64,000 nt of DNA from Aurantibacillus circumpalustris (GTDB lineage: Bacteria; Bacteroidota; Bacteroidia; B-17B0; Aurantibacillaceae). Each line of letters starts with the position of its first letter. The first letter of the stretch is position 1. Below the pieces are notes generated by a model. The model had not been told where the DNA came from. It made no database searches and was given only the letters and a program-made list of their open reading frames with translations. Positions 843 to 32,974 of the stretch are shown one piece after another. The stretch is from positions 1,302,001 through 1,366,000 of the forward strand of contig NZ_CP121197.1 of the NCBI RefSeq assembly GCF_029625215.1. Reading direction: 5' to 3'. Both the position numbers and the translations under genes were made by a program.

Positions 843-1032
843 TTGTTTTAAGTATTTCAGGTTCTTTATATTCTTGATTGTATGTTTTAAGCTTATCAAT
901 CAAAAGCTGTTTTGTTGGAAATAAAAAAAGTTCAGGTTGACCAGTTACAACTTGCTGTCCCTCAATTAAGCCTCCATAGTGAAACACTGTTGTTTCATTT
1001 GTTGCCAAGTAATATGTGTTAAATTCCACCAT
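826..1032 (-). CDS. Small tail-operon protein, 68 aa, unknown
   Basis: A 68-residue protein starting MVEFNTYYLATNE. Its start overlaps the end of the LysM/BspA tail gene by 14 bp and its stop overlaps the baseplate J-like gene by 17 bp, so it is translationally packed inside the tail operon. It has no signal peptide or membrane segment. I do not recognise a family. The tight coupling on both sides argues that it is real and that its product works with the baseplate, but this is inference from position only. Confidence 0.5.
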   Translation of the reverse strand: MVEFNTYYLATNETTVFHYGGLIEGQQVVTGQPELFLFPTKQLLIDKLKTYNQEYKEPEILKTNGTNT

Positions 1033-3181: not shown

Positions 3182-3476
3182 ATTTACCAGCCACTTTAAA
3201 ATCGTTTAAACCCGAAATAATTAAAAAATCAATTGTTTGTCCGTCCGCTTCAAGTTCCGCTTGCGTTTCTTTTTTCAAGTCACGCAAACCACCCTCGTCT
3301 AAAATCCACGACTCAACACCAACACCACTATCAGGCTCCATTTTATTTTCGCCTTTCTCACAAATAATTAAAAGTTGCGAATGCTGGCGAGTACTTTCGC
3401 CAACATAATCGTCGCCATTTCTAACTTCGTTTTCACCAGTATTTTGGTCAAGTAATATGTCGTAAACTTTACCCAT
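3171..3476 (-). CDS. Mu gp46 / gpW-like baseplate protein
   Basis: A 101-residue acidic protein (MGKVYDILLDQNTGENEV). The pattern of an N-terminal 'D..TGE' segment, a conserved 'E..W.L....G' central part and a C-terminal helix ending in 'V.G' fits small baseplate wedge proteins related to T4 gp25, P2 W and Mu gp46. It overlaps the spike-like gene upstream by 8 bp and the LysM/BspA gene downstream by 11 bp. The order spike, gp46-like, J-like matches Mu-type baseplate modules, here interrupted by the LysM/BspA gene. The product would form the inner baseplate ring. Family assignment is from size, order and weak motif similarity. Confidence 0.55.
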   Translation of the reverse strand: MGKVYDILLDQNTGENEVRNGDDYVGESTRQHSQLLIICEKGENKMEPDSGVGVESWILDEGGLRDLKKETQAELEADGQTIDFLIISGLNDFKVAGKYGN

Positions 3477-4050
3477 GTTTTACATCCTCGTTTTCATCTT
3501 CATTAAAAGTTATTATTTGTGATCCCATTTCAGCGTCAAAAGATATTTTACCATTAGCTCCGTTAGCAGCCGTTGAAGCTCCAACCGCTGTAAACGCATT
3601 GCCAATTGCTGTATTTAAACTCCCTAAATAATCCTTAATCGCATTTAAATTATCCAGTATAAATTCTTGTATTGGTAAGCCGCCGTATTGATCGCCGTTA
3701 ATTTTAATTTTACCATCATCGGTAAACTCAAAAGTGCGTCCTGAAACGGCCTTTAAATGCCATTTTTTTATCTTTGAAAAGCGCGTTACCTGATAAGCAT
3801 GTTCATTATTAAAAAGGCAGCTAATTGTAACTTCTGAGTCTACATCGGGTATGCAAACAATTCCCGAATCATCATCGCTAACGGCAACATTTAAACGCAC
3901 ACTTTCAAAATCAGGTCCTCCACGCGATGGTGTAACCACGCAAGTAAAATCAGTTTCATCAACAGATTTAACCTTTCCTGTAATTGTTGCAGGAATGGTT
4001 TTAAGAATTAATCTTATAACAGCTTTTCTAAATTTATCGCCAATTATCAT
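3469..4050 (-). CDS. Baseplate spike / gp45-like protein (OB-fold)
   Basis: A 193-residue protein with an N-terminal beta-rich OB-like region (about 20-110, containing TGKVKSVDETDFTCVVTPS and VCIPDVDSEVTISC). This resembles the N-terminal domain of central spike proteins such as P2 gpV and Mu gp45. A segment TFEFTDDGKIKING follows, typical of phage spike proteins, then a C-terminal coiled segment. It lies directly after the hub gene (4 bp overlap) and before the gp46-like gene, the normal place for a spike. The product would sit below the tail tube and puncture the envelope. It is shorter at the C-terminus than P2 V and shows no clear apex metal-binding HxH motif. Confidence 0.6.
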   Translation of the reverse strand: MIIGDKFRKAVIRLILKTIPATITGKVKSVDETDFTCVVTPSRGGPDFESVRLNVAVSDDDSGIVCIPDVDSEVTISCLFNNEHAYQVTRFSKIKKWHLKAVSGRTFEFTDDGKIKINGDQYGGLPIQEFILDNLNAIKDYLGSLNTAIGNAFTAVGASTAANGANGKISFDAEMGSQIITFNEDENEDVKHG

Positions 4051-4979
4051 ATCAATACTTTTCTACCCGGTGTAATTGTTCTGTTGTATCCTTCAGGACC
4101 ATAATTTGTAACTACCATATCAGCAAAAACGCCTTGTTCGCGCTCCGGAAAATAATCATCCTCCAACCAAAGTGTCCAACTGTGATCTACATAAGGTCGG
4201 CCACCTAACGAGCGAAACGTTCCTTTGTAACCGTCATATTTCATGCGGTCAATTTGCTCCTGGGCGAGTGCTTTTAATTCGCTCTCTTGTTTGTTGTAAA
4301 AATGTAAAGTGATGCTGTTACCATCCGAATCTCCAAACTCCTTTTCTATACGTTGGTTGTTTGGCAACACGCTAACAGCCTTTACTTTTATGCGTAAATC
4401 TTCTTTGCGCTTGTAAATTAAGCCCGTTGCTTTAGCGTTTTTTTGAAAATGGTAAACCACTTCAGGCAGATTCTTTTCTATGTAAGGCAAGCCAATAAAA
4501 AGCGTTTTTTCGCGGTAGTAAGATGTAAGTAAAAAATCATCTTTCAACTTTTGCAAAGCATAAGCAACCGTTGTATTTTCTGAAATACGGAAAGGCGAAA
4601 GTGTAACCTCCGGGCAATCAATTGTTGCATCCGGCACAAGAAACTTTAAAAGATTTTTAAGTGTGATACTTTTCCAACTGCCCGATTTAGTGGTTTGTTT
4701 CAAATTCCACATCTCATCCTCGCACTTTATTTCAACAGGCATAGTTGGTAATATTTCCGAAACGTACCCTTTAAATTCGGTTATGTACTCGTCGTCGTAA
4801 GCTCCTTGTATTTCAACAGCATCACCAACCTTTATTGCACCAAGTAGCCCCGCAATATTGTGCATTTTAATAGAGGCGGTTTGCGTCATTTGCTTCCAGC
4901 TTTTTGTGGTTGTAAACGAATGACAATGAGTAAACTCATAATCGCCAATTGTTATATAGCTATTCATCCAAACGCTCAT
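4047..4979 (-). CDS. Baseplate hub protein (gpD / gp44-like)
   Basis: A 310-residue protein matching phage hub proteins (P2 gpD 'late control', Mu gp44). The N-terminus (YITIGDYEFTHCHSFTTTKSW) forms the first hub beta-domain, 'VGDAVEIQGAYDDEYITEFKGYVSEI' type strands follow, and the middle part contains the hub insertion. The C-terminal half has 'LKALAQEQIDRMKYDGYKGTF', the helix-beta pattern seen before the last barrel of hub proteins. It overlaps the DUF6046-like gene by one base and the spike gene by 4 bp. It would form the trimeric platform joining tube and spike. Sequence similarity to enterobacterial homologues is weak, so the call rests on fold pattern and gene order. Confidence 0.65.
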   Translation of the reverse strand: MSVWMNSYITIGDYEFTHCHSFTTTKSWKQMTQTASIKMHNIAGLLGAIKVGDAVEIQGAYDDEYITEFKGYVSEILPTMPVEIKCEDEMWNLKQTTKSGSWKSITLKNLLKFLVPDATIDCPEVTLSPFRISENTTVAYALQKLKDDFLLTSYYREKTLFIGLPYIEKNLPEVVYHFQKNAKATGLIYKRKEDLRIKVKAVSVLPNNQRIEKEFGDSDGNSITLHFYNKQESELKALAQEQIDRMKYDGYKGTFRSLGGRPYVDHSWTLWLEDDYFPEREQGVFADMVVTNYGPEGYNRTITPGRKVLI

Positions 4980-8411: not shown

Positions 8412-9647
8412 TTAGTCGAGTGAGGCAGCTAATTCAATAGTTGTGTTAATTTGTCTCAACGTACCTGTTGGTACAGTAGTGAGTTTTTCAACAAGCGCAC
8501 TCAGGCTAATAATATTTTGAGCCGGATCAACAAACGCTTTCAGTCCCGAAATTTCTTTGTTGCTTCCACCCATTTGATCGTTAACCGCATCTTCAAGCAG
8601 CGACTCGTAATGTTTCGCTGTTGTTGCATCCAGTTGTCCGGTTGCCGGATCAACTTCAACTTCATCAAGTATCTCCTCAATGTTTGTTGCGTGAACAATC
8701 TTATCAATTTTATCAACCGTGCGGCCATTGGTTAACTGGCCATAAGTATCAGTCGATACACAAGCCATGTGATCGTCGTTAAAAAAGAAACCCGATTTAC
8801 GTTTGTGTTTAAGCATAAACACATAACCATAATCACTAATTAAACCTTGTTGAGTGTCGGTAATTGTGCTAATTTTTGCGCCATTCGAAAGTCCTCCGGT
8901 TGTAATGCTCGAAAGCGATCCGCTTTTTACGCGGCCAATATTTCTATTTACTTTATTTGCAGCTGCTCTGCCAAGTGCAGCACCTACCGATGCGTATTTA
9001 CTTTTGTAACCAGCACCCTCGCCGTAAGCATAATCGTTACCAATAACAACCATCGCACGGTTTACGCCCGGCGTTGTGCCCGATGCACGGTAATTAGTTA
9101 ACGAGGCTGGAGTGCCTTGAAAATTTCGGCCTTCAACAATAACGCGGTAAGGGTCTTTAGTTAAACGATGTGCTTCAGCAGTAATTTTTATTTGTGCCAA
9201 AGCGGTTAAAAGATCAGCTTCAAGTTGTCCATCATACGTTGGCGTATAACTTCCATCAGGCGTAAAAGTTAAACCAACAAGTGGCGCGTTACCTTCTACA
9301 AAATCAACCGCTTTTTTGTAGCCGTTTGCTGTTGCTGCCGTAGCAGTTACAGTTAATGTTTGTGTCATTGCCACAACCATTACCCAAAGCTTAGTGCCTT
9401 TTGGTGCTTCAACATAAAAGTCTTTAATATGCTTCCACGCAATTGTTGTGTTTGTGGTATCATAAGCTTCATCAATTCCCATTAACTCAGCATCACCTAA
9501 TTCTAAAAATGGACCTAGTACATCACCAAGTGCAAATTTTCCTCCAACGGCAACGCCGCTAAGTACTAGAATTGAATTACCATCTTCAACAGCGTCAATT
9601 TTTCCAAGTGATCCGCCAATTGTTGTATTTGTTCCCGGTTTAGCCAT
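8412..9647 (-). CDS. Tail sheath protein (DUF2586-like)
   Basis: A 411-residue protein starting MAKPGTNTTIGGSLGK. It shows the sheath pattern: an N-terminal strand that exchanges between subunits, a variable middle (for example EAPKGTKLWVMVVAMTQTL, then YRVIVEGRNFQG) and a conserved C-terminal half (GLISDYGYVFMLKHKRKSGF, then NDDHMACVSTDTYGQLTNGR). The C-terminal strand ends in LRQINTTIELAASLD. It resembles the DUF2586 family of sheath-like proteins in Bacteroidota phages. Its presence means the phage has a contractile tail, consistent with a Mu-like myovirus. It lies between the spanin-like gene and the tube gene. Confidence 0.8.
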   Translation of the reverse strand: MAKPGTNTTIGGSLGKIDAVEDGNSILVLSGVAVGGKFALGDVLGPFLELGDAELMGIDEAYDTTNTTIAWKHIKDFYVEAPKGTKLWVMVVAMTQTLTVTATAATANGYKKAVDFVEGNAPLVGLTFTPDGSYTPTYDGQLEADLLTALAQIKITAEAHRLTKDPYRVIVEGRNFQGTPASLTNYRASGTTPGVNRAMVVIGNDYAYGEGAGYKSKYASVGAALGRAAANKVNRNIGRVKSGSLSSITTGGLSNGAKISTITDTQQGLISDYGYVFMLKHKRKSGFFFNDDHMACVSTDTYGQLTNGRTVDKIDKIVHATNIEEILDEVEVDPATGQLDATTAKHYESLLEDAVNDQMGGSNKEISGLKAFVDPAQNIISLSALVEKLTTVPTGTLRQINTTIELAASLD

Positions 9648-14241: not shown

Positions 14242-15872
14242 TGGCATTAAAACCAAAAGATAAAGAAGCCCTGCGCGATTGGGAATCCTTCAGGCGCAGT
14301 ATTGAGTTGGCAACAATAATTGTTACCGACGAAACGTATGCACAAAAAAAGGAAAGAATCGCAAACCTTACTAAGCCCGGTAATCAAGAAGCCTTTGCAA
14401 AATACTACTTCCCACACTATTGCTCCGCTGGTTTTGGCACTTTTCAAACACGTTTTTTTAAAGAACTTTTAAATAGCATTCGCGCATACATCACAAACAA
14501 ATGGTCTCGTGACCATGCAAAATCAGTCACCTCCGATGTTATTGCCGTAATTTATTTATGGGCAACCAATCAAATGTCAAACCTTCTTTTGGTAAGCCAT
14601 AACGAAACTAATGCAATCGAACTACTCACGCCGTTAAAGCTAGAATTTGAAACAAACCTTCGTTTAATAAATGACTTTGGCAACCAAGTTAATCCCGGTA
14701 GTTGGGAGGCTGGCAAAATAGTTACATTAAACGGTTGCAGCTTTCGCGCATTGGGCGCTGGCCAATCTCCAAGGGGCTCGCGTAATCAAGAAGCGCGTCC
14801 CGATTTAATAATTGTCGATGATATTGATACCGAAGAGTTGTGCCGAAACACGCGCCGTTTAGACGAGTTGTGGGAGTGGGTAACTGGTGCGCTGTACGGT
14901 TGTTTTAGTATCCAAGGCCGCAAACGTTTTATTGTAGTAGGTAATAGAATCGCAAAAGATTGTATTGTTGAACGCGCTGCCGCGCAAAGCGATTATTCAG
15001 AGCAAGTTGATATCCTTACAAAGGGAAAAGTAGACAAAGCTTATGTTGACCAAATTACAAAGCAAGTAAACTCCTTTAAAGATAAAAACCATAAAGATTA
15101 TAAGATTTGGTTAGAGGTTGTAAAATACGCTCGCGAGGGATATAAACCAACGTGGAAAGAACGCTTCACGCTTTTTGATTGTGTTTACATGATTACAAAA
15201 ATGGGATACCGAATGTCCCAACGCGAATATTTCAACAACCCAATTTCCGAAGGCAAAGTATTTAAAAAAAGTTGGATGCAATTTAAACAGCTTCCGCCTC
15301 TCAGAAATTACACGCGCCTGTTAGCATACTTAGACCCCGGTTTTAAAAAAACAGCAACCTCAGATAGTAAATGTTTGGTGCTTGTCGGCATGGGCAATGG
15401 TGAAATTCACGTGCGAAAAGTGTATTGCGGCAAAGCTTCAGTTGAGGAAATGATTGAATGGTGCTACAACATGCAAGAGTTTGTAAAACGCAACGGCGGT
15501 GCCTTTCGCATAAAAATGGAAGATGTTTTTTTACAAAGTTTATTATACAAAGATTTTGCTGCCGCAGCAGCTAAACGCTATCCTCTGCCCGTAAGCAGTG
15601 ATACTCGCAAGAAGCCCGACAAAGACGCTCGTATAGAATCAATGTCGGGTTACTTCGAGCGAGGTTCTGTGTTTTTTGATGAGGATATAAAAGAAGAGCA
15701 TCATACACAAGCTTTAATTGAACAGTTTTTAAATTTCGAACCGGGCGTTAAAACATTAAAAGATGGTCCTGACGCATTCGAAGGTGCAGTTTTTCTTTTA
15801 GAGCAAGGTGGCATTACGCGACCTGAAGATATTGACCACGGCAATTATTCACACTCAAAACATAAAATATAA
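14241..15872 (+). CDS. Terminase large subunit
   Basis: A 543-residue packaging ATPase/nuclease. The N-terminal ATPase shows a degenerate Walker A near residues 93-100 (NKWSRDHAKSVTSDV), as in several Mu-like terminases, and a Walker B with catalytic acidic residues in RPDLIIVDDIDTEEL (about 190-205). The C-terminal RNase H-like nuclease starts with LLAYLDPGFKKTATSDSKC (about residue 360) and has later acidic residues in IKMEDVF and KKPDKDARIESM. The length is normal. It sits between small terminase and gp36-like gene with single-base stop/start overlaps. It drives headful packaging, which in Mu-like phages starts inside the phage end. Confidence 0.88.
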   Translation: MALKPKDKEALRDWESFRRSIELATIIVTDETYAQKKERIANLTKPGNQEAFAKYYFPHYCSAGFGTFQTRFFKELLNSIRAYITNKWSRDHAKSVTSDVIAVIYLWATNQMSNLLLVSHNETNAIELLTPLKLEFETNLRLINDFGNQVNPGSWEAGKIVTLNGCSFRALGAGQSPRGSRNQEARPDLIIVDDIDTEELCRNTRRLDELWEWVTGALYGCFSIQGRKRFIVVGNRIAKDCIVERAAAQSDYSEQVDILTKGKVDKAYVDQITKQVNSFKDKNHKDYKIWLEVVKYAREGYKPTWKERFTLFDCVYMITKMGYRMSQREYFNNPISEGKVFKKSWMQFKQLPPLRNYTRLLAYLDPGFKKTATSDSKCLVLVGMGNGEIHVRKVYCGKASVEEMIEWCYNMQEFVKRNGGAFRIKMEDVFLQSLLYKDFAAAAAKRYPLPVSSDTRKKPDKDARIESMSGYFERGSVFFDEDIKEEHHTQALIEQFLNFEPGVKTLKDGPDAFEGAVFLLEQGGITRPEDIDHGNYSHSKHKI

Positions 15873-16285
15873 TGGCTTTCATTGATAAAATAGATTACGA
15901 AACAATCATTGCTGATAATATCCTAGACGATATTACAGAGATTGACGACGCCAAAATTGATGTTGCCGAAACGCGCGCCATTGAATTTATGAGCGGTTTT
16001 TTAAACAACCGTTACGATGTCGAAAACATATTTAATAAAACAGGCGCAGAGCGTAACCCTGTAATATTAGGCTATGCAATGGATATTACAATTTACTATT
16101 TACACCGCTTAGTAAACTGGCGTAACGCCCCAGCCACAAGAGTAAACGCATATACCGAAGCAAAAGAGTGGCTTGTAAAAGTAAGTGAACTGCAAATAAA
16201 TCCACCAAACCTTCCTTTTTTACCTGAAGGCGAAAAAGACTACATACAATTTGGTGGTAATGATAAACGCACAAATCATATTTAA
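15872..16285 (+). CDS. Mu gp36-like protein (DUF1320)
   Basis: A 137-residue helical protein (MAFIDKIDYETIIADNILDD). The pattern 'A...AI.....L..RYD....F...G..R...I......I..Y.L' is typical of DUF1320 / Mu gp36 head-tail joining proteins. The terminase stop and its ATG overlap (TAATGG). In Mu, gp36 lies later, near gp37; here it lies between terminase and portal. It probably acts at the neck. Confidence 0.65.
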   Translation: MAFIDKIDYETIIADNILDDITEIDDAKIDVAETRAIEFMSGFLNNRYDVENIFNKTGAERNPVILGYAMDITIYYLHRLVNWRNAPATRVNAYTEAKEWLVKVSELQINPPNLPFLPEGEKDYIQFGGNDKRTNHI

Positions 16286-16307
16286 AAACAATTTAATCAG
16301 CATTTAA

Positions 16308-18398
16308 ATGGCCGATAAACAATATTCCAAAATAGGAAAATCAATTAACTACGTTTCAAGTTTAAGCGTTGCACCAATTCGTATGCAAAGTCAAGATATT
16401 GGCAATTGGGTAACTGCTGTAAATTGCGCGCGCGATATTCGTATGCCTCGCCGCCGCTTGTTATACGAACTTTTCGACAACATCCGTCAAGATGGTAAAG
16501 TGGCTACTGTTATGCAAAAGCGCAAAGTGGCTATCACAAACAAAAATTTTGTTTTTTATAACAAAAACGACGAAGGCACAACCGTTGATCGTATCCAAGA
16601 TGAAATTATTGATATGCCTTGGTTCGACGAGATGCTTGAAATTTTAGAAGAGGAAGACTTCTATGGTCACGAATTAATGGAGTTTGTGCCTGACGGAAAA
16701 GGCGGTATTGAATCTGTAATTCAAATACCACATGCAAACGTAGTGCCTGAAACTGGCTTGTTGCTTCCTAATTATATGGATACAACAAACGGTGTTTTGT
16801 TTCGTGGTCCAAATGCCGATCCGCAAGTGAGCAAATACCTTTTAGAATTTGGTAAGCAAAAAAACTATGGCCTATTAATGAGCATGGCGCAGTATGTTAT
16901 TTACAAGCGCGGTGGCTTTGGCGATTGGGCAGAGTTTGCAGAGTTGTTTGGCAGACCTTTCCGCGTTGGTAAATACAATCCATTAGACCCAACGTCAAGA
17001 AAATTATTAAGCGATGCACTAAGAATTATGGGCGGAGCTGGTTTTGGCGTAATACCTGAAGGCACAACGCTTGAATTTATACAAAGTAATTTTGGCTCTG
17101 GTCAAAGCGGCATCTTTAAAGATTTAACGCAAGCCTGTAACGACGAAATTGCGCAAATCGGTTTGGGTGGAACTATGACAACCGATAACGGCAGTAGCCT
17201 TTCTCAAAGTGAAACACACCTCGAAGGTGAAAACGCAATTGTTGCAGCGCGTCTTAAAAAAATAATCAAATTTTTAAATGGTCCATTTCGCAAAATGATA
17301 AGCGGAAAGGAATTTAAATATAAAGAAGCGGAAAACGGATATTTTAAAGTTGATCGTCCTGAAATTATCGGCTTAAAAGATCGCATAGAAATTGATATGC
17401 AAGTGGCCACACAAGTAAATATTAAGCCGGAGTACTGGTACGAAAAATACGATTTACCAAAACCCGACAATGGCGAACTATTAAAACAAGCCCCTACAAC
17501 ACCGCCTGACCTTAAAAATGAAAACGCAAAGGCAGAGCTTGAAAAAAAAAAGACCAAACTAAGCGCAAGGCTTAACGCCTATTATACTCCCACTTGCTCC
17601 TGTTGCGCTCCCCTCTCTGACAGAGAGGGGCATGGAGTCAGGTTAGATTTTAATACAGACATCGAAAAACTAACAAAACTTATTTTCGACGGCAAACTTA
17701 AACCCGGCACCGTAGATAAAGAATTGATAAACAAAACAGCATCAAAACTTTTAGAAGCAATCACAAAAGGTTATTTGCGACACCCTTCCGATTTTACTGA
17801 AGCAGATAAAAACCTAATCGCATTTATGCAAGAAAACGTTTTTATTTTCTCAGGCTTTAAAACCGAAAACATGCTTCGTGAGGCTTCCGATTTACTTTTA
17901 GATGCTACCGGAACACTCCGCCCTTTTAACGACTTTAAAGAGCAGATTTTGCAGCTAGATGCAAAGTATAACGTTACCTATTTGGCAGCAGAATACAATC
18001 ACGCGGTTGCATCCTCTCAAATGGCCAGCAAGTGGCTAAACTTTCAAGAACTTAAAGAGGATTTTCCAAACTTAAAATACTCTACAGCTGGCGATGCAAG
18101 AGTGCGCGATGCGCATGCGGTGTTAAACGGTTTAATTATACCAATGGATGATCCGCGTGTCGATGCAATTTACCCGGTTAAAGACTTTGGTTGCCGTTGC
18201 GATATGGATGCAACTGATGAAGAGCCAAACGACACCAAGTATAAAATAAATCCATCGTCACTAGGTCCATTTAAAAACAATGTAGGTAAAGATGGTATTG
18301 TGTTTCCTGAGTCGCACCCATATTACGAAACAAGCAAAACAACCGCCAAAGGCATAGTTGCAGCAACAAAAGCATTGTACAAACAAACCAAAAAGTAA
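16308..18398 (+). CDS. Portal (DUF935, Mu gp29-like) fused to Mu F-like head morphogenesis protein
   Basis: A 696-residue fusion. Residues about 20-410 match Mu gp29-like portals: MPRRRLLYELFDNIRQDGKV, QIPHANVVPETGLLLPNYM, YKRGGFGDWAEFAELFGRPF and IGLGGTMTTDNGSSLSQSET. Residues about 450-690 match SPP1 gp7 / Mu F-type minor head proteins, with the diagnostic end DARVRDAHAVLNGL, then YPVKDFGCRCDMDATDEE. In Mu the two are separate genes. Here the junction (residues about 425-446, YTPTCSCCAPLSDREGHG) is encoded by a palindromic repeat at 17590-17646. The fusion is continuous and in frame, so it is probably functional. Confidence 0.85.
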   Translation: MADKQYSKIGKSINYVSSLSVAPIRMQSQDIGNWVTAVNCARDIRMPRRRLLYELFDNIRQDGKVATVMQKRKVAITNKNFVFYNKNDEGTTVDRIQDEIIDMPWFDEMLEILEEEDFYGHELMEFVPDGKGGIESVIQIPHANVVPETGLLLPNYMDTTNGVLFRGPNADPQVSKYLLEFGKQKNYGLLMSMAQYVIYKRGGFGDWAEFAELFGRPFRVGKYNPLDPTSRKLLSDALRIMGGAGFGVIPEGTTLEFIQSNFGSGQSGIFKDLTQACNDEIAQIGLGGTMTTDNGSSLSQSETHLEGENAIVAARLKKIIKFLNGPFRKMISGKEFKYKEAENGYFKVDRPEIIGLKDRIEIDMQVATQVNIKPEYWYEKYDLPKPDNGELLKQAPTTPPDLKNENAKAELEKKKTKLSARLNAYYTPTCSCCAPLSDREGHGVRLDFNTDIEKLTKLIFDGKLKPGTVDKELINKTASKLLEAITKGYLRHPSDFTEADKNLIAFMQENVFIFSGFKTENMLREASDLLLDATGTLRPFNDFKEQILQLDAKYNVTYLAAEYNHAVASSQMASKWLNFQELKEDFPNLKYSTAGDARVRDAHAVLNGLIIPMDDPRVDAIYPVKDFGCRCDMDATDEEPNDTKYKINPSSLGPFKNNVGKDGIVFPESHPYYETSKTTAKGIVAATKALYKQTKK
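17590..17646. repeat. Palindromic repeat inserted in frame in the portal/F gene
   Basis: Contains the 9-bp perfect stem CCCCTCTCT / AGAGAGGGG (17610-17618 and 17622-17630) in the context CGCTCCCCTCTCTGACAGAG. I know this family (CTCCCCTCTC...GAGAGGGGC...GGGGTGAGG) as a dispersed repeat in Bacteroidota genomes. It encodes the Cys-rich linker CSCCAPLSDREGHG exactly at the boundary between portal and F-like domains. Its GC content is above that of the flanks. Confidence 0.7.
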
Positions 18399-19648: not shown

Positions 19649-20485
19649 CTATTTTATAACAACCATTTTCTTTGCCGTACCGTTTCCTGAAGCAGTATGC
19701 AGTTGATAAAAATAAGTCCCTGAAGGCAAATCGCTGTTATCCAATTCAAGCGAATTAAAAGTGGCATCAACATCGTACCGCTTTAACTCTTTGCCGCTAA
19801 TATCAAAAATAATAATTTGCCCGGCAGTTTCATTATTTGTAAACTGGTAACCAACCGTTGTTTTGTTAGTGGAAGGATTAGGCACAGCACCACTCACTAA
19901 ATTAATGTTATTCACGTCAACTAATCCAGTTGGCTGGCTTGATGTGTTTCCCTTCACATGCATAGGCAAACCACCAACAAGCGAATAAACATTTATTTGC
20001 TTCAACGTCGATTTATTTGTTGAGTCAACATTTACAATTAATTTGTAACCATCTGCCGCGCCACCGTAATTAATGTACGGATAAGTCCCTTGTGTTACAT
20101 TAAAAAGAACTTGCGCGTTTTCGTTCACAACACGCGTTTCGCAAACATAGGTTGACGGCGTAACACTAAAGTTATACGCATAACTATAATAAGCAACTTC
20201 AACAAGATTATCAGTATTAAACAAAGAGTCAGAAACTTGGCCACCACCAAAAGTATGACCAGCCGGCATTGGTAAATTAATTAACTTAAAAACAGAGTGA
20301 TTCATGTTATAAAGCTTAACAATTGCATTTGGGTTATCAAATAACAAATATTTGTAACCCGATTTTACAAGCTCCACAATACTTAAATTTTGATAGGTTG
20401 CCGTTGCCGGGTATGAGTTTTCCAACGTAATTTGCGCTTTAGTAAATCCACAAAGCAGCATTAAAATAGTAAAAGATTTTTTCAT
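19649..20485 (-). CDS. Secreted protein with type IX secretion sorting domain (prophage cargo)
   Basis: A 278-residue protein with signal peptide (FTILMLLCGFTKAQ, cleavage after AQ). The C-terminal ~75 residues form a type A T9SS sorting domain: 'PNPSTNKTTVGYQF', 'IIIFDISGKELKRYD', 'LPSGTYFYQLHTASG' and the basic end KKMVVIK. The middle is beta-rich, of unknown fold. It lies inside the prophage between the late arms and the DGR region, with its own terminator/repeat downstream. Such cargo is not needed for phage growth and is probably expressed in the lysogen. The function of the passenger part is unknown. Confidence 0.8.
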   Translation of the reverse strand: MKKSFTILMLLCGFTKAQITLENSYPATATYQNLSIVELVKSGYKYLLFDNPNAIVKLYNMNHSVFKLINLPMPAGHTFGGGQVSDSLFNTDNLVEVAYYSYAYNFSVTPSTYVCETRVVNENAQVLFNVTQGTYPYINYGGAADGYKLIVNVDSTNKSTLKQINVYSLVGGLPMHVKGNTSSQPTGLVDVNNINLVSGAVPNPSTNKTTVGYQFTNNETAGQIIIFDISGKELKRYDVDATFNSLELDNSDLPSGTYFYQLHTASGNGTAKKMVVIK

Positions 20486-21963: not shown

Positions 21964-22007
21964 AACTATAAATTTAATGATTTTTAAATACTATTTAAAC
22001 GTTGTTT

Positions 22008-22388
22008 TTAATTGGTTTTTTTAATACTGTTGCGCTTCCAATAAATTAGCTTTCCCACAAAAGGTTTATTAAACCACTTCCAAAAATCCTCCACAGAATT
22101 AAATCCATCATTCTTAGCAAGTGTTTTAATTCCATTATCACCTAAAAATTCAGACTCTTTAATACTGTGTATCAATTGTACTGTTTTTGCTTGCGGCTCT
22201 ATCTCAATTCCACAAGTACACTCACAAAGAGTTTTTGCAAATTCTTTATACTGCTTTGTTCTAACACCAGTAGCCATGTGCATTAACATTCCGGCTTTCC
22301 ATCTGTTGTTTTTATCCTCTCTTATGGTGTGAACTTTTACACCTTTTAAAATCGGCTCAACAAATTTTTTATTAAATCCTATTACCAT
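22008..22388 (-). CDS. ASCH-like (PUA-fold) domain protein
   Basis: A 126-residue protein starting MVIGFNKKFVEPILKGVKVH. The motif KVHTIREDKNNRWKAGMLMH is the signature of ASCH-like proteins (conserved 'K..TiR.....W..G'), and the C-terminal SVEDFWKWFNKPFVGKLIYW fits the last strand-helix. ASCH domains resemble PUA RNA-binding folds, and some members process modified nucleobases. It lies directly downstream of the DGR reverse transcriptase and has the same 25-bp leader as the first DGR target gene. No link to DGR function is established. Confidence 0.65.
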   Translation of the reverse strand: MVIGFNKKFVEPILKGVKVHTIREDKNNRWKAGMLMHMATGVRTKQYKEFAKTLCECTCGIEIEPQAKTVQLIHSIKESEFLGDNGIKTLAKNDGFNSVEDFWKWFNKPFVGKLIYWKRNSIKKTN

Positions 22389-22398
22389 TTTATTTGTC

Positions 22399-22423
22399 GT
22401 TCAGTTTCCTGTTCCCGGTTTTA
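22399..22423. repeat. 25-bp direct repeat flanking the DGR, left copy
   Basis: Core CTGTTCCCGGTTTTA, whole 25 bp identical at 24 positions to 24721-24745 and in the same orientation. It overlaps the reverse transcriptase stop codon and ends 10 bp before the ATG of the ASCH-like gene, the same spacing as the right copy has to its gene. Confidence 0.8.
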
Positions 22424-23659
22424 AGTAAATTGACATCTTTTGTTTTCCTTAGTTATAATTGTTGTAAACGGGAACGATTCGCTTGGTACTTTTTTAATAG
22501 TTTCCATTAAAGCACCCGAACCAGTAAACACAACCCTTTTTCTACCTTCATAAGTAATTTGCAAATACAAACAATCGCCTTTACCCTCAAACTTGGATGG
22601 CTTAAGGCTGTAGCCGTGTACTGTTATTTGTTGGTTAATTATTTGGTAAATTTCTATTTTATCCCCTTCCATCGCAGGGGCACTTGGTTTAATTCCTAGA
22701 TCACTAAATGATTTCATAAATAGTTTTTTGAGTAAATTTTTTGAGTTACAATGTTTTGCCCAGCCGTAATAAGATGGTACAGATAACGATTGAGGGTTAC
22801 GATTTACAGCCCGTGCAAAATCCTGTTTAATTGTTTTGCGCATTTTAACGTAATCATGGTAGTGTACATAGCCCACAAAATCAATACCACAACTTACAGG
22901 GAAAATTCTATAATTACTTTTTACGGTTAAGTTTAAACTGCTGTTTAAATAATTCTTAATGTCCGCTAATAATTTATGTAAATACTCTTTGTTGGGCGCA
23001 AGAATAACAAGATCGTCAGAGTATCTAAAATAAAACTTAACACCAACGCTTTCTTTTATCCAATGGTCGAAGTAGGTTAAATAAAAGTTTGCAAAGTACT
23101 GGCTCAAATAATTACCAATTGGCAAACCGGGTGCGCTGTCAATTATTTCATCAAGCAGCCACAACAAATCCAAATCTTTGATTTTACGCCTTAATAATTT
23201 TTTAAGAACGTTGTGGTCAACGCTTGGGTAAAACTTCTTTACATCAAGCTTTAAACAGTATTTAGTTTCGTTTTTATCCTTTAGGGCAGATCGCAAAGCG
23301 TATGAAGCACCGTGTATTCCTTTTTTCTTTATACAACTGTACGTGTCGCTGGTAAATACCGAGTTAAACATCGGTTCAAGAATATTCATAACAGCATGAT
23401 GTGTGATTCTATCAGGGTAATAAGGCAAACGGTAAACATCACGCTCTTTAGGTTCAAAGATTTTAAAAACCTTGTATTCAGAAGTTTTGTAGGTTTTATT
23501 TAAGAGTGCCTCGTGCAATAACAAAATATAGCTTTCACTATTTAAGTCAAACTGTTTTACTCCCGGCTGCGTTAACTTTCCTTTTCTTGCTTTTTTTTCG
23601 GCAAGTCGTAGATTATCAACGCTACAAATGTTTTGGTATATGTTACCGATTCTTTTCAT
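22421..23659 (-). CDS. Diversity-generating retroelement reverse transcriptase
   Basis: A 412-residue reverse transcriptase. Motif A is in YCLKLDVKKFYPSVDH (Asp139), motif B is LPIGNYLSQYFANFY (181-187 IGNYLSQ), and the catalytic box is YFRYSDDLVILAPN (YSDD, 213-216). The [ILV]GxxxSQ form is the signature of DGR enzymes; most other RTs have QGxxxSP. The normal RT ends near residue 320. A further ~85 residues (GDCLYLQITYEGRKRVVF and FPFTTIITKENKRCQFT) form a beta-rich extension that I cannot name. It lies downstream of the template repeat in the same transcript. No separate Avd gene is visible. Confidence 0.93.
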   Translation of the reverse strand: MKRIGNIYQNICSVDNLRLAEKKARKGKLTQPGVKQFDLNSESYILLLHEALLNKTYKTSEYKVFKIFEPKERDVYRLPYYPDRITHHAVMNILEPMFNSVFTSDTYSCIKKKGIHGASYALRSALKDKNETKYCLKLDVKKFYPSVDHNVLKKLLRRKIKDLDLLWLLDEIIDSAPGLPIGNYLSQYFANFYLTYFDHWIKESVGVKFYFRYSDDLVILAPNKEYLHKLLADIKNYLNSSLNLTVKSNYRIFPVSCGIDFVGYVHYHDYVKMRKTIKQDFARAVNRNPQSLSVPSYYGWAKHCNSKNLLKKLFMKSFSDLGIKPSAPAMEGDKIEIYQIINQQITVHGYSLKPSKFEGKGDCLYLQITYEGRKRVVFTGSGALMETIKKVPSESFPFTTIITKENKRCQFT

Positions 23660-23885
23660 GCTTTGCTGTTCAAAAAGTCGCTTTCGATTTTACTACTAAC
23701 GCCTTTCACTTTTTTATCCTTTTCAGGCTTGTTATTTTTTGCAACTGTTGGCAAGGTTTATGCTGCTAATTACTTCGCATAGGTGCGAGCTGACATTCGA
23801 ATTCGTGTTATCGTTATCGTAGTCGTTGTACGAGAAACCGACACCCGGCGAACCACAGCCCTAACACAGCATACAACCCTTATTG
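23660..23885 (-). ncRNA. DGR template RNA region (TR plus spacer)
   Basis: The 226-bp gap between target gene 1 and the reverse transcriptase has no gene. It holds the template repeat (23777-23854) followed by about 117 nt of spacer up to the RT start. In studied DGRs (BPP-1) the TR and the adjoining spacer upstream of rt are transcribed together and prime cDNA synthesis. The same layout is seen here on the minus strand. RNA ends cannot be read from sequence. Confidence 0.7.
23777..23854 (-). repeat. DGR template repeat (TR)
   Basis: A 78-bp non-coding copy of the variable region of both target genes. Its first 24 bases contain no adenine. The next 54 contain 19 adenines, mostly in AAC, TAC and GAT triplets in phase with the target reading frame, the composition that gives widest codon choice on adenine mutagenesis. 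Both VRs differ from it almost only at those adenines. Confidence 0.93.
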
Positions 23886-24242
23886 TTAATCTATTAAGTA
23901 ATAATCTTTGTAAAGCTCCTCAAACTGCTTTCCGGCATACTCCGCCAGTTCGCTTGATTTAAAGCAAAGGCGCGAGCCGACAGTCGAATTCGAGTAAACG
24001 AGACCGTAGTCGTTGTCCGAGAAACCGACACCCGGCGAACCACCATCGTCTCCCATTCTAAACCAAGGATAATATTTCCATTCATCCCAATTGTTCCAAT
24101 TAGGCTTCCAACCATCATTTAAAGCTTGCGCAATAATTTTTAGCTTCATATAAGCTAACTCATCTTTGCTTAATCCTTCAGGCGGAGTGAATCCTAATTT
24201 TAATGCTTTTAAAGCATCTTCAAACGTTTTGATCTTTTTCAT
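23886..24242 (-). CDS. DGR target protein 1 (variable protein, 118 aa)
   Basis: A 118-residue protein without signal peptide (MKKIKTFEDALKALKLGF). The N-terminal half is helical (DELAYMKLKIIAQALNDGW); then KYYPWF leads into the variable segment. The variable repeat spans residues about 68-93 (start GSPGVGFS, end VGSRLCF), followed by a fixed C-terminal helix (SSELAEYAGKQFEELYKDYY). The invariant GVGFS and GSRLCF frame about 13 diversified codons. I do not recognise the fold; it does not end in the usual C-type-lectin motif, since a helix follows the variable block. It lies 15 bp after target gene 2 and directly before the template repeat. Confidence 0.85.
   Translation of the reverse strand: MKKIKTFEDALKALKLGFTPPEGLSKDELAYMKLKIIAQALNDGWKPNWNNWDEWKYYPWFRMGDDGGSPGVGFSDNDYGLVYSNSTVGSRLCFKSSELAEYAGKQFEELYKDYYLID
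23964..24041 (-). repeat. DGR variable repeat 1 (VR1)
   Basis: Aligns without gaps to the TR over 78 bp with 11 differences. Ten fall on TR adenines (3 to G, 2 to C, 5 to T), and one is T to G at the first base of the variable block. Of the 59 non-adenine TR positions only one differs. Confidence 0.93.
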
Positions 24243-24257
24243 ACTGTGGTTTTGTTT

Positions 24258-24710
24258 TTAGTTAAATAAATCATTATAAATATCTTTGAACTGTTCCGCT
24301 GCGTATCTTGCTAACTCTTCCGATTTAAAGCAAAGGCGCGAGCCGACACCCGAATCCGCGTTATCGCCAACGCAGACGCCGCACGAGAAACCGACACCCG
24401 GCGAATACTTTAACCAAGGGTAATACTTAACCTGATTAGAGTTTGAAAAGTCAGGAAACCAACCCTCGTTTAATGCTTTTGCAATAATACCGACCTTTGC
24501 ATGAGCTTGTGCCGCTATCATATCTTTGTCCTGCCCATTGTAATCTAAAATAGTTTTAAGATCATTAGATGCCCCGGCAATTCTAAAAGCATCCGCAAAA
24601 TTTTTAACTCTGTCGGTAATTTTTAGGTTTACCTTTTTAACCTCTTCGATTTGCTCAGGGGTTAGTATGATTTCTACATCTTTCCCGTTGATGTTTATTT
24701 TTGTTGTCAT
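24258..24710 (-). CDS. DGR target protein 2 (variable protein, 150 aa)
   Basis: A 150-residue homologue of target 1 with a longer N-terminus (MTTKININGKDVEIILTPEQ). Shared elements are the helix 'AKVGIIAKALNEGWFPDF', KYYPWL, the variable block from SPGVGFS to VGSRLCF (about residues 102-127), and the C-terminal helix SEELARYAAEQFKDIYNDL. Its current variable block is Cys/Gly/Val-rich (SCGVCVGDNADSGVGSR), quite unlike target 1. It has no signal peptide or membrane segment and lies outside the tail operon, so how it would be displayed is unclear. It is the first gene of the cassette and carries the 25-bp leader repeat 10 bp before its ATG. Confidence 0.85.
   Translation of the reverse strand: MTTKININGKDVEIILTPEQIEEVKKVNLKITDRVKNFADAFRIAGASNDLKTILDYNGQDKDMIAAQAHAKVGIIAKALNEGWFPDFSNSNQVKYYPWLKYSPGVGFSCGVCVGDNADSGVGSRLCFKSEELARYAAEQFKDIYNDLFN
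24330..24405 (-). repeat. DGR variable repeat 2 (VR2)
   Basis: Aligns without gaps to the TR over 76 bp with 15 differences, all at TR adenines (12 to G, 3 to T). None of the non-adenine positions in this block differ. The last three changes (G, G, T in the 3' part) are shared with VR1 and may mark the fixed mutagenesis-homing end of VRs versus TR. Confidence 0.94.
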
Positions 24711-24720
24711 TTTATATTTT

Positions 24721-24745
24721 GTTCAGTTCCCTGTTCCCGGTTTTA
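24721..24745. repeat. 25-bp direct repeat flanking the DGR, right copy
   Basis: Core CTGTTCCCGGTTTTA; 24 of 25 positions equal to 22399-22423. It ends 10 bp upstream of the target 2 ATG. It may act as leader for the cassette or mark an old insertion border. Confidence 0.8.
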
Positions 24746-24750
24746 TTAAT

Positions 24751-24924
24751 TCATTTTTTGTTTTTCTTATAAGCTCCTATATACCCTGCCTTAACATGTC
24801 GCTCATGCGATAAATCTTTTTTAAGCCTTTCAATCTCCTTGTCCTTTTCAATCATAGCATGCGCATCTTTAATTTTCTGCATCATGTCAGGCGGAAACAA
24901 CGGTATTTGAAATTGATCGTTCAC
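24751..24924 (-). CDS. Small helical protein, 57 aa, GTG start
   Basis: A 57-residue frame starting with GTG at 24924 (VNDQFQIPLFPPDMMQKIKD), whose start overlaps the stop of the preceding gene as GTGA. That overlap supports translational coupling and decides the start. The protein is a charged helix (AMIEKDKEIERLKKDLSHER) ending in KKNKK. It is too short for most gene finders. Function unknown. Confidence 0.55.
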   Translation of the reverse strand: MNDQFQIPLFPPDMMQKIKDAHAMIEKDKEIERLKKDLSHERHVKAGYIGAYKKNKK

Positions 24925-25103
24925 GACTGTGGCACTCTGTTTTTTGCAATCTTTAAAGCAGTAATAAGCCTTTCAATATTCTCGCGCTCAATATGCAGTA
25001 CTTGCATATCCGTTTCAGATAAGCCCCAAACTTCAACAACATCCTTTTCGCGATCTTCAATTTCAATATCGTGGTAGCCCTTTTGTTTAATTATTTGTTT
25101 CAT
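24921..25103 (-). CDS. Small phage protein, 60 aa
   Basis: A 60-residue protein (MKQIIKQKGYHDIEIEDREK) with two halves: a short strand-rich N-terminus and a helix 'IERLITALKIAKNRVPQS'. It is coupled to the downstream 57-residue gene by a GTGA overlap and lies 26 bp after the HTH-like 79-residue gene. No family recognised. Confidence 0.5.
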   Translation of the reverse strand: MKQIIKQKGYHDIEIEDREKDVVEVWGLSETDMQVLHIERENIERLITALKIAKNRVPQS

Positions 25104-29810: not shown

Positions 29811-30680
29811 CTACAGTTTTTTAAGTTCTGTAGGTATGCGGCGCAAGCTGCCTTCTGTTTTAATTAAAATCTTTTGTACATCAACACCTTCAGGTGCATT
29901 CGCTTTTATTACTGCGGTGGCCTGTGCCATTGTAAAAGCTTTTTGCTCGTCCGCTCCCATTGGCGTGCTGCGCTGGTATCTTTTACCGTAGCGGCTAAAA
30001 ATTTCCGCATAACCAACCCGTTTACATTCTATTGATCGGCGTATCTTTTCTTTTAACCCATCTGCGCCCATCATATACCAGCCGCAAGCGTTCTCGGTAG
30101 CATTCCATAATGCTTTTAATTCTAAAAAGGCAGAGTATTCTAAATCGCCAACCTCGTCTAAAATAACAAGGGGGTTATGAGCCGCGCTAGTTATGTAGTA
30201 ACACAAATCTCCATAAACATTACTATACTTTCCAACGTGCTCAACCCCGAACTCGCGCGCAATTTGTCTAACTAATTTTTGTCTCGTTTTTACTTGGCTG
30301 CAATCAATGTAAACCGCGCCTTTATTTTCGCGCACATAAACCCGCGCGCTGTATGTTTTACCAATTCCGGCATCATCACAAAAAATCGCGCTTATACTTT
30401 TCTCTTGGCACTTTTTAAGTTGCGCTGTAATCGTGTTGTAAACGGGAGTTTTTGCCGTATTCCATTTACTGTTGCCTTTTAAATCAACCTCGGCAAGTCG
30501 CGCTAAACTTATCCATTGGCCATCACTTACTACCTGAAAAAAGTTGCCGTTGCTAAGTCTGCTCCATTGCGCAGCGTTAATACCTATTTTTGTCGAGAAC
30601 CCTTTATCGCTTCCGATATACATGCCGCGTTGCTCTTTTAAGGCTTTTACTATTTTGCTTTTTGCTTCTGTGGTTATCAT
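29811..30680 (-). CDS. MuB-like transposition ATPase
   Basis: A 289-residue AAA+ protein. The N-terminus (about 1-75) contains an HTH-like region (GFSTKIGINAAQWSRLSNGN). Walker A is in SAIFCDDAGIGKTYSARVY (about 98-115) and Walker B in HNPLVILDEVGDLEYSA (about 172-188). The order HTH then AAA+ is that of MuB, which binds target DNA, stimulates the transposase and gives target immunity. It directly follows the transposase and a small zinc-ribbon gene. Confidence 0.88.
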   Translation of the reverse strand: MITTEAKSKIVKALKEQRGMYIGSDKGFSTKIGINAAQWSRLSNGNFFQVVSDGQWISLARLAEVDLKGNSKWNTAKTPVYNTITAQLKKCQEKSISAIFCDDAGIGKTYSARVYVRENKGAVYIDCSQVKTRQKLVRQIAREFGVEHVGKYSNVYGDLCYYITSAAHNPLVILDEVGDLEYSAFLELKALWNATENACGWYMMGADGLKEKIRRSIECKRVGYAEIFSRYGKRYQRSTPMGADEQKAFTMAQATAVIKANAPEGVDVQKILIKTEGSLRRIPTELKKL

Positions 30681-30961: not shown

Positions 30962-32974
30962 TTATAAATTGTCAATTGCTTCTTGTTCGTCATTCTCTTG
31001 GCTGTATTGGTCTGTGATTGCATCCGGGTTAAACGGCTCTTCAACAACCTCCTCTTTTATTTCAGCTTCAGTTTCTAGCGCCTCGTTCAAAATTTTACTT
31101 TCAATAATCACAGCCGCGGCTAATTCTTGTTTGCTGTTTTTAGTGGCTGCATCAAATTCACTTACCACACTACTTTGGCGGCGGTAATTTTCGTAATCTA
31201 TCGAGGTGGCTTCAGCTTTACTTTCGTTGTAAGCAATTATCTTGTCTGCCTTACATAAAAACAACTCGCCTTGGTACAAATACACTTCGCTAATCAAACC
31301 CTCTTCATTTGGCAGATAAAACGCGTCTACGGTGTAATTTCCCGGTGTTAGTTTATCCATTATAGAAAAGCTGCCTATTCCGTACTTAGAACCTAAAACT
31401 GTTGCGTAATGGTTGCGGCGTATACTTGTTACTGTTTTGTTTCCAATCGCGCGGTAAACAATTGCTTTGCTTACGGTTGGCGAATTAGGATTCATGTTTT
31501 CAGTTAACACTTGCCAGCGAGTTTTGCCGGGATACTTTTTTTGTTTTGGGTGTAACTGGTTGTTGTAATCTTTACAAGCTTGCACATCATCTGCAACAAG
31601 TCTCTCGTAAGGCAGTTGGTTTTTTTCAACAAACTCATCGCCTTTTTTATCGCGGTCTACGGTGTAAGCTTCGTGTTTACTCCACCAACGGCCTATGCCG
31701 TTTTGTGTTTTCATTTCAACACCGTATTTTTTAGCGCGATTAAAGTGCTCTGCTCTTTTCTCTTGTGAGTTTCCAGCGTTACAAACGCGCACAAAAGGAA
31801 ACATCACGCCTAAATCATCAAAGAATTTATTTACTAAGTGATGTTCAACTTCAACCTCCATCGGCATTCCAAATTGCTCGCGTTCAATCAATCTAAACAG
31901 GTCGCGCATACAGTCTAAAAACAACTCTTCATTTTTAAACAAACTATGCGAGTAGCCAATTACGCATCCACTAGTTACATCGTAAGCGTAATAAGCCTTA
32001 ACCCATTTACCATTGTTGCACTTGCGCGGTAAATCTCTATCGTCCATCGATATTTTACTAAACGAAAACTCAGGCGCGTGTCTGTGGTGGTGTGGTCTGT
32101 GAACATTGTTATATCTGTGTGATCCCATTCTTATCTTATCAACCACGCTTCTATTTTGCGCTTGGTTTAAATAATTCCAAACCGTTGTCTCACCAATTAC
32201 AATCGGGCTGTCGTTTTCGTAAAAATCAAGTGGATTAAAAAGCTCTCCTGTTTTTCTGTCCGCAACTTGTATGTGTCCGGTTAAGAATTGAATGTATAAC
32301 GAGTGAACCGTTGATGCGAAAGGCTTATTCGGCATCGTGTAAAGGCTCATAATAAGATTTTCAATTTTGTCGTTTACCTTGCGACTGTTATCATTGCAGT
32401 ATTTACCGCTAATCAACCCAGCATAACCTTCGCTTAAATATTTAGAGTACTTCCTGCTAAGTGTTACCGATGTAGATGGTAAGGAGTGTTTTAATTCGGC
32501 TCTAACATTATTTACAGCGGTTACAGCGTTATGCCAAAACTTATTTAAACTCGCACCTAGCTTACTGCGCACCTCTTTGGCGTTTGTGTGCGTTTCTTTT
32601 ATCGCATTAAGAACAGCCGCGTTAATACTATACTCGCGCTGTGTATCCGATGGTAATTTTCTGCCGTCAGATAATGTATAGTCGCTGTAAAAACTTATAG
32701 CTTTCGAATCGGCAATTATTTTATCTTTAAAAGGCTTTATTGTTGCTTGCTCTGTAACCTCGCCATACTTAGCTGAAATCATATCGCGATATTTTTGAGG
32801 TATACTATTAAACTCAACTAAAGCAGACTGGCCATTGCAAGCGCGGCGCATAACATTAACACCACTCTTAACCCATTTGTCCCACAACGATTTTGATATA
32901 AGGCCATCGGGGTTTCCGTCCCTCATTATCAACATCGATCCGCTAATACATAACTTGTCTTTGTAATATTCCAT
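30962..32974 (-). CDS. MuA-like DDE transposase
   Basis: A 670-residue transposase. The N-terminal ~250 residues would bind end sites (helical, basic). The RNase H-like core starts near 300: ISMDDRDLPRK gives the first acidic residue (Asp311/312), AYYAYDVTSGCVIGYS forms the next strand, MEVEVEHHLVNKFFDDLG would carry the second (Glu377, where Asp is usual), and GNSQEKRAEHFNRAKKYG holds the third (Glu409). A basic C-terminal domain follows (RRNHYATVLGSKYGIGSF). Length equals MuA (663). It catalyses integration and replicative transposition. It lies downstream of the Ner-like gene. Confidence 0.9.
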   Translation of the reverse strand: MEYYKDKLCISGSMLIMRDGNPDGLISKSLWDKWVKSGVNVMRRACNGQSALVEFNSIPQKYRDMISAKYGEVTEQATIKPFKDKIIADSKAISFYSDYTLSDGRKLPSDTQREYSINAAVLNAIKETHTNAKEVRSKLGASLNKFWHNAVTAVNNVRAELKHSLPSTSVTLSRKYSKYLSEGYAGLISGKYCNDNSRKVNDKIENLIMSLYTMPNKPFASTVHSLYIQFLTGHIQVADRKTGELFNPLDFYENDSPIVIGETTVWNYLNQAQNRSVVDKIRMGSHRYNNVHRPHHHRHAPEFSFSKISMDDRDLPRKCNNGKWVKAYYAYDVTSGCVIGYSHSLFKNEELFLDCMRDLFRLIEREQFGMPMEVEVEHHLVNKFFDDLGVMFPFVRVCNAGNSQEKRAEHFNRAKKYGVEMKTQNGIGRWWSKHEAYTVDRDKKGDEFVEKNQLPYERLVADDVQACKDYNNQLHPKQKKYPGKTRWQVLTENMNPNSPTVSKAIVYRAIGNKTVTSIRRNHYATVLGSKYGIGSFSIMDKLTPGNYTVDAFYLPNEEGLISEVYLYQGELFLCKADKIIAYNESKAEATSIDYENYRRQSSVVSEFDAATKNSKQELAAAVIIESKILNEALETEAEIKEEVVEEPFNPDAITDQYSQENDEQEAIDNL

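Follow-up and report, generated by a model that had tools for sequence, protein, structure and literature searches.

Among the systems described so far, the diversity-generating retroelements (DGRs) of BPP-1 and of the Hankyphage (Bacteroides phage p00) are among the closest to a cassette of two target genes, a template repeat (TR) and a reverse transcriptase (RT) that we analysed in a 64,000-nucleotide stretch of the Aurantibacillus circumpalustris genome (contig NZ_CP121197.1 of assembly GCF_029625215.1, positions 1,302,001 to 1,366,000, forward strand), hereafter the window. In BPP-1 the cassette consists of mtd, avd, TR and brt, and the target is the tail protein Mtd; according to the available part of a report on its mechanism, an internal adenine of the spacer primes complementary DNA (cDNA) within the initiation of mutagenic homing sequence of the TR (IMH*; IMH in the variable repeat, VR), the cDNA remains joined to the RNA, preferred targets have the cDNA-complementary strand as lagging-strand template, and the homing step, in which cDNA finds and enters the VR, is incompletely understood (PMC12875486). 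Efficient homing in BPP-1 requires a DNA hairpin after the VR, as stated in the accessible text of PMC3240598. The Hankyphage is, like the prophage of the window, a Mu-like temperate phage of Bacteroidota; its DGR lies beside one large target gene, called a tail fibre in the portions of the literature at hand.

The cassette of the window resembles that of BPP-1 in its adenine-biased TR and VRs, its IMH/IMH* pair, its related RT and a spacer segment whose complement lies in the VR IMH rather than in the TR, and differs from it in its targets and in that neither an Avd nor a DNA hairpin after the VR was found. The best explanation of the locus is a DGR without Avd, belonging to a family that is widespread in Bacteroidota phages. 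Its accessory domain, its RNA element, its small early-region targets and, above all, the covariation of spacer and IMH set it apart from known DGRs. The fuller account, in which an Avd-less DGR makes spacer-primed cDNA that anneals at the IMH and diversifies intracellular targets, is in our judgement slightly likelier to be right than wrong. An earlier note on this DNA, made from its letters alone, had placed target2, target1, TR and RT in that order on one strand, and this is borne out, all elements being on the minus strand (window coordinates):

24258..24710, minus: target2, 150 aa, contains VR2 (phrog_11581, E 4e-22; target-family hidden Markov model, E 6e-43)
24330..24405, minus: VR2, 76 nt, inside target2; its final 15 nt are the IMH (24344-24330)
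23886..24242, minus: target1, 118 aa, contains VR1 (phrog_11581, E 1e-29)
23964..24043, minus: VR1, 80 nt, inside target1; its final 15 nt are the IMH (23978-23964)
23777..23856, minus: TR, 80 nt; its final 15 nt are the IMH* (23791-23777)
23660..23776, minus: TR-RT spacer, 117 nt, predicted conserved structured RNA (alignment, covariation and a model match of E 1e-15, the window being in the training set)
23667-23660, minus: 3' end of the spacer, AGCAAAGC, part-complementary to the VR IMH
22421..23659, minus: RT, 412 aa, the RT part being residues 1 to ~313 (PF00078; phrog_1423, E 2e-117; tree)
22421..22723, minus: C-terminal domain of the RT, OB-like (oligonucleotide/oligosaccharide-binding) in a predicted model, a separate open reading frame (ORF) in most relatives (phrog_19665; predicted model; structure comparison; split/fused survey)
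24708..24745, no strand: direct repeat, upstream copy, ending at the target2 start codon
22386..22423, no strand: direct repeat, downstream copy, extending from the stop codon of the RT as far as the start codon of the next gene

The locus is a genuine DGR of known kind. TR and VR1 differ at 11 of 80 nt, 10 of them TR adenines (hypergeometric P 5e-7), and TR and VR2 at 15 of 76, all adenines (P 1e-12); computed alignment thus returns the same counts of differences that had been obtained by hand. The last 15 nt read AGCTCGCACCTATGC in the TR and GGCTCGCGCCTTTGC in both VRs, so that the VR IMH differs from the IMH* of the TR; because the three adenine differences involved are identical in VR1 and VR2 and are found again in most relatives, mutagenesis did not produce them. 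With this part excluded, VR1 retains 8 mismatches, 7 at adenines (P 1e-4), and VR2 12, all at adenines (P 1e-9), which upholds the adenine-mutagenesis signature proposed before; the statement that 17 of 19 TR adenines vary is numerically correct but includes the three fixed differences, and outside them 14 of 16 core adenines vary, all 16 lying at codon positions 1 or 2. Both VRs lie within coding target genes, and a genome-wide search for further VRs (4.6 Mb, E up to 1) matched TR, VR1 and VR2 only. DGR RTs carry the motifs (I/V/L)GxxxSQ and YxDD, and the RT of the window contains IGNYLSQ and YSDD, as had been claimed. The SQ motif is named as a feature of DGR RTs in the part of PMC3521204 that we could consult. 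In a quick tree covering DGR and group II intron RTs, drawn with long-branch warnings and with 40 randomly picked rows of split RTs, the window RT falls among the DGR enzymes and is separated from the three group II intron RTs (SH-aLRT 100), in line with the proposed class.

Relatives of the cassette were collected from viral contigs (289 relatives, of which the best 80 were kept) and, by means of the target family, from genome contigs (52 loci, three titled Ignavibacteria or Chlorobi and the others Bacteroidota). A TR/VR pair occurs in 77 of the 80 viral loci, with at least two VRs in 60, three in six and similar spacing in most; the layout, which had been thought possibly new, is therefore not unique. 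The RT was matched from residue 1 past residue 300 in 33 of the 52 genome loci, two more being truncated by a contig end. Together with one related prophage found among 86 other genomes of the host family (genome G014, RT 64% identical), spacer, TR/VR and RT were usable in 111 loci with 212 VRs, of which 76 loci are viral and 33 come from genome contigs, the window and G014 making up the rest, so that the same cassette is present in 110 loci besides the window. Pooled over relatives, 2079 of 2149 mismatches fall at adenines, a figure biased by design, since the TR/VR finder discards repeats in which adenines account for less than 75% of the mismatches (less than 70% in the test of other DGRs described below). 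Seventeen pairs of near-identical cassettes allow activity to be judged. Between loci L030 and L033 there is no difference at the 1902 sites outside the repeats, the 85 of the TR or the 122 non-adenine sites of the VRs, but 11 of the 47 adenine sites of the VRs differ; in 12 further pairs, adenine VR sites differ at 37-64%, other VR sites at 0-3.3% and sites outside at 3.5-12.9%, and four of the 17 pairs have no difference in any class. Since L030 and L033 differ at VR adenines only, the comparison shows VR diversification among relatives of the window cassette and indicates that DGRs of this kind are active.

No Avd was found with NCBIfam among the ten window ORFs between 21056 and 25785, where two Avd controls gave E 1e-31 or better. 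Residues 1-315 of the RT match phrog_1423 and residues 315-403 a separate family, phrog_19665. This accessory domain lies in another frame in 75 of the 80 viral loci, is fused to the RT in three (L003, L004, L008) and was not found in two (L059, L063); when separate, its ATG is usually 1-20 nt upstream of the RT stop codon, most often 11 nt (39 of 75), with none within range in three. A survey of 127 RTs gave 108 split, seven fused, nine in which no domain was found (some of them at contig ends) and three group II controls; on the quick tree the distribution of fused RTs needs five changes, of which well-supported branches force only one. The predicted structure of the domain (pLDDT 92) resembles SSB, PriB, PRD1 P12 and RuvBL2 at Z 5.0-6.5, RuvBL domains scoring highest, which is only suggestive of an OB-like fold. 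For 53 members of the family, Pfam gave only scattered weak matches. The Hankyphage RT ends in a homologous fused domain (E 4e-9), and the small ORF beside it, labelled Avd in a published legend, matches DUF4376 and not bAvd. The DGRs of the crAss-like and archaeal viruses cr115_1, LMMB, vir525 and vir215 have phrog_1423-type RTs; those of cr115_1, LMMB and vir525 are 37-57% identical to the RT of the window, and vir525, like most relatives, has a separate OB-like ORF. The domain was not found in BPP-1, LMMB, cr115_1, Versailles, Perkons or one Avd-type plasmid DGR.

Alignment of the TR-RT spacer across 52 sequences shows it to be a strongly covarying, conserved putative RNA element: three helices are predicted, 11 of 12 pairs change on both sides, 96.5% of cells are paired (75.2% when shuffled) and covariation is 0.67 (0.23 when shuffled, at most 0.12 when slid), all counted on the alignment from which the structure was derived. 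A covariance model trained on the spacer of the window together with those of 51 viral loci was used to search 46 of the 52 genome loci and detected all 33 RT-bearing ones, none of which had entered the model, as well as G014, L106 (no RT found) and L128 (contig end). A comparison of 22000-25000 with Rfam gave nothing up to E 1. On 19 other annotated DGR loci the model gave three weak scores (vir215, E 0.001; LMMB, E 0.005; Perkons, E 0.016) and no score for BPP-1 or the Hankyphage, whose spacers are in this respect unlike that of the window.

Directly ahead of the RT start, the spacer ends in a segment, in many loci GCAAAGGC, that is reverse-complementary to the end of the VR IMH, GCCTTTGC. 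Over 118 loci (seven outside the family) the longest spacer complement averages 8.6 nt to the VR and 4.9 nt to the TR, and at octamer positions 1-8 where VR and TR differ (212 VRs, each spacer being placed in the register that best fits either VR or TR) the spacer fits the VR 457 times, the TR 55 times and neither 71 times. When one locus is taken per group of 80% RT identity, the VR fits better in 61 of 67 groups, the TR in two, with four ties; in the 19 groups with a non-canonical IMH, the IMH matches its own spacer at 6.68 of 8 positions versus 5.74 for random spacers, a value reached in none of 5000 permutations, although such groups are still related and the grouping is not a full correction for descent. 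Individual loci show the joint change directly: L061 and L133 have VR GCCTTGTGT and spacer ACACAAGGC, L109 has VR GCCTTGTTTTT and spacer AAAAACAAGGC, and L118 has VR GCCTTGCTT and spacer AAGCAAGGC. For the spacer of the window, the longest complementary run covers 7 nt of the VR and 4 nt of the TR. Part of the spacer segment fits the TR instead in several loci, and our preferred reading is a double role, in which the segment would prime on the TR and anneal to the VR.

Outside the family, spacer nucleotides 48-56 of BPP-1 are perfectly complementary to VR 118-126, and no match to the TR is as long as 6 nt. The match ends at spacer nucleotide 56, opposite VR 118; we take A56 and TR G117 to be the mapped priming points of BPP-1. 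Twenty other DGR loci were tried, of which Perkons lacks a TR/VR pair and 19 were scored against 200 shuffles, without correction for multiple tests. The match is significant in BPP-1 (1 of 200, P 0.005) and Versailles (10 nt, P 0.005); P is 0.07 for vir215, 0.085 for vir525 and 0.2 or more for fifteen others, including the Hankyphage (7 nt, P 0.37). A spacer-VR match as a rule for all DGRs is not supported, as 17 of the 19 fall short of P 0.05. No DNA hairpin is seen after the VR: the best stems are 4 and 5 in the window and have a mean of 4.5 over 222 VRs (4.26 when shuffled), whereas the stem in BPP-1 is 9.

These observations can be assembled into the following scheme. The RNA carrying TR and spacer would fold, within the spacer, into the conserved hairpin element and be bound by the RT with its OB-like domain, fused in the window. 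The cDNA would be primed inside this RNA near the end of the spacer, and the TR copied with errors at adenines. As the primer segment, which is AGCAAAGC in the window and in many relatives GCAAAGGC, is similar to the antisense strand of the VR IMH, the RNA-cDNA chimera may anneal to the sense strand of the VR at the IMH and replace the VR, the TR being spared by the mismatch of its IMH* to the primer segment; two small early-region proteins would in this way be made in ever new variants. We infer the role of the OB-like domain, the priming site, the annealing to the VR, and the place and role of the targets. That the choice of target is guided by RNA, the primer segment of the spacer duplicating the antisense strand of the VR IMH while mismatches of the IMH* protect the master copy, in this Avd-less family and in a different manner in BPP-1, is a proposal to which we give a little less than an even chance. 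Such covariation would supply a simple, testable rule for the choice of target and the sparing of the master copy; an OB-like partner instead of Avd, together with targets in the early region, would, if true, widen what DGRs are known to use and to change. A partial search of the literature returned no earlier publication of the spacer-VR match, the OB-like domain or phrog_11581 targets, and one may exist.

Several results weigh against this scheme. The OB-like matches remain below Z 8, and Foldseek returned no match for the accessory domain at E 0.001 or better; octamer position 7 fits the TR 20 times and the VR five times; the window octamer fits the VR at 6 of 8 positions and the TR at 5 of 8, a preference so slight that the window alone would not have revealed the match; the spacers of most other DGRs tested lack it, as given above; and a homologue of the targets in Versailles is annotated 'tail protein'. 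Our confidence is slightly lowered because the match is weak in the window and absent from most other DGRs tested.

The targets match phrog_11581 and no convincing Pfam family, and 50 members of the target family gave only scattered weak Pfam matches. In phages without a DGR in the stretch shown, their homologues lie among recombination, methylase or sigma-factor genes, and in Versailles the DGR lies elsewhere than the target homologue. The model of target1 (pLDDT 83, ~51-64 in the VR part) has a sole PDB match at E 7.6, which is not convincing, and, at E 0.001 or better, four matches in BFVD, each to a phage protein that is uncharacterised; a crude hydropathy scan, which says little about export, found 37 of 143 targets with a hydropathy window above 1.6. 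Most likely the targets are early-region proteins whose ligand is not the host surface but something variable inside the host cell, for instance a competing phage or a defence factor; in favour of this, their homologues in other phages have genes of DNA metabolism around them. A conventional tropism DGR, in which the small targets would be minor virion or tail-tip proteins that alter host range as in BPP-1 and the Hankyphage and their early-region position would be accidental, is rather unlikely but deserves real weight. The annotation in Versailles fits such a function, and most phage DGR targets of three clades are annotated as tail structure in the available part of Roux 2021 (PMC8144416). 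The cassette of the window, however, stands on the early-gene strand with the MuB-like gene to one side and the packaging genes to the other, the sheath, tape measure and baseplate hub genes being over 12 kb away, and cassettes of relatives adjoin transposition, primase, ParB-like or exonuclease genes; the lack of a PDB match for target1 also speaks against it, although the VR part is poorly predicted, so that target1 may yet have a C-type lectin fold.

Two further alternatives concern the spacer and the state of the cassette. The complementarity might have another cause, such as the VR protein motif GSRLCF, a translation signal of the RT or common descent, and imply no pairing in life: the IMH does encode a conserved peptide, the spacer segment adjoins the RT start, and most loci have the same octamer and contribute no covariation. 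We consider this unlikely, in that the spacer changes along with the VR codons in L061, L133, L109 and L118, the permutation test holds with one locus per (still related) RT group, and the match in BPP-1 lies far from the RT start of that phage. It is still less probable that the cassette of the window strain is inactive and its RT-OB fusion a frameshifted, decaying form, as the predominance of separate ORFs among relatives and the existence of decay (e.g. L106) might suggest: the 412-aa frame is open, the fusion recurs in G014, L003, L004 and L008, the Hankyphage RT is also fused and its DGR reported active in the sources partly available to us, and the motifs, TR, RNA element and both target frames of the window are intact.

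The targets also distinguish the window from its nearest counterparts. A Mu-like phage DGR does have its precedent in the Hankyphage, as the earlier note had it, but the parallel does not extend to the targets, which there comprise a large gene of tail-fibre type and here two small early-region phrog_11581 proteins; with 118 and 150 aa and no other VR in the genome, the window has no large target of the Hankyphage type. In LMMB, vir525 and vir215, unlike in the window, a tail or tail-collar gene adjoins the DGR. The tentaclin DGRs of phages nd4 and nd12 likewise have two target genes, which are, unlike those of the window, large C-type lectin plus immunoglobulin-like proteins in the accessible part of the description (PMC10743442); nd12 has no significant spacer-VR match.

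The prophage of the window is supported as a contractile-tailed, Mu-like phage by MuA- and MuB-type genes together with head genes of Mu type:

30962..32974, minus: MuA-like transposase (phrog_310, E 3e-42)
29811..30680, minus: MuB-like DNA transposition protein (phrog_296, E 1e-39)
16308..18398, plus: Mu-type portal and Mu F-like protein (PF06074, PF04233)
8412..9647, minus: tail sheath protein (phrog_907, E 4e-26)

Tape measure, baseplate hub and capsid genes were found in the prophage in addition to the sheath gene. Together with the position of the RT among DGR RTs, the matches to phrog_310, phrog_296, PF06074 and phrog_907 bear out the proposal of a DGR in a Mu-like prophage, and a Bacteroidota host, likewise proposed, is indirectly supported by the Bacteroidota names of 49 of the 52 named target-family loci. 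Among 82 loci, neighbours include MuB-like genes (22), their partner ATPase (25) and Mu-type head genes on the other strand (21); neighbour clusters, each present in five to six loci, have matches to families of primases, ParB-like proteins or exonucleases. Between early and packaging genes, 19649-20485 encodes a protein of 278 aa, perhaps cargo, that has a sorting domain of type IX secretion (Por). At the far end of the tail genes, the 720-aa product of 1019-3181, which has DUF285 repeats and matches PKD weakly, is a candidate tail fibre that the DGR leaves untouched.

Seventeen loci have a target gene with no RT nearby, five of them in genomes with an RT match elsewhere. Two of these five, L174 (RT 2871-3824, extra target 16067-16402) and L175 (RT 15209-16153, extra target 4207-4560), each have a complete cassette and, ~10-12 kb away from it, a third gene of the target family. 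L106 (8457-8568) has targets and the RNA element, and no RT was found there by tblastn, which suggests a decayed cassette. In G014 (L091, 9876-11339) the RT frame is open back through the TR, so that a TR-RT fusion protein could be read.

The direct repeat that flanks the cassette (38 nt, 89%) precedes target2 and follows the RT; with up to 3 mismatches allowed, the genome has two copies of its 25-nt core. The same element flanks the cassettes of G014 (L091, 9131 and 11338) and L003 (1201 and 3776); a test of 20 window ORFs found homologues of none in L003 (8.7 kb) and of seven in G014, all upstream of the cassette, and the repeat therefore goes with the cassette. It may be a recombination boundary or a shared leader. 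Searched for as a sign of empty sites at up to 2 mismatches, it was present in 3 of 87 genomes (two copies each in the window genome and G014, one in G055), and the single G055 copy was rejected as an empty site, its 3-kb locus having no match to twelve window phage proteins tested. Among viral contigs the exact pattern occurs only in that of L003. In the window, L091 and L003 a start codon follows the ~24-nt core by ~14 nt each time, though the following genes differ. L040 and L064 have different direct repeats (28 and 20 nt) at nearly the same two cassette-end positions as those of the window.

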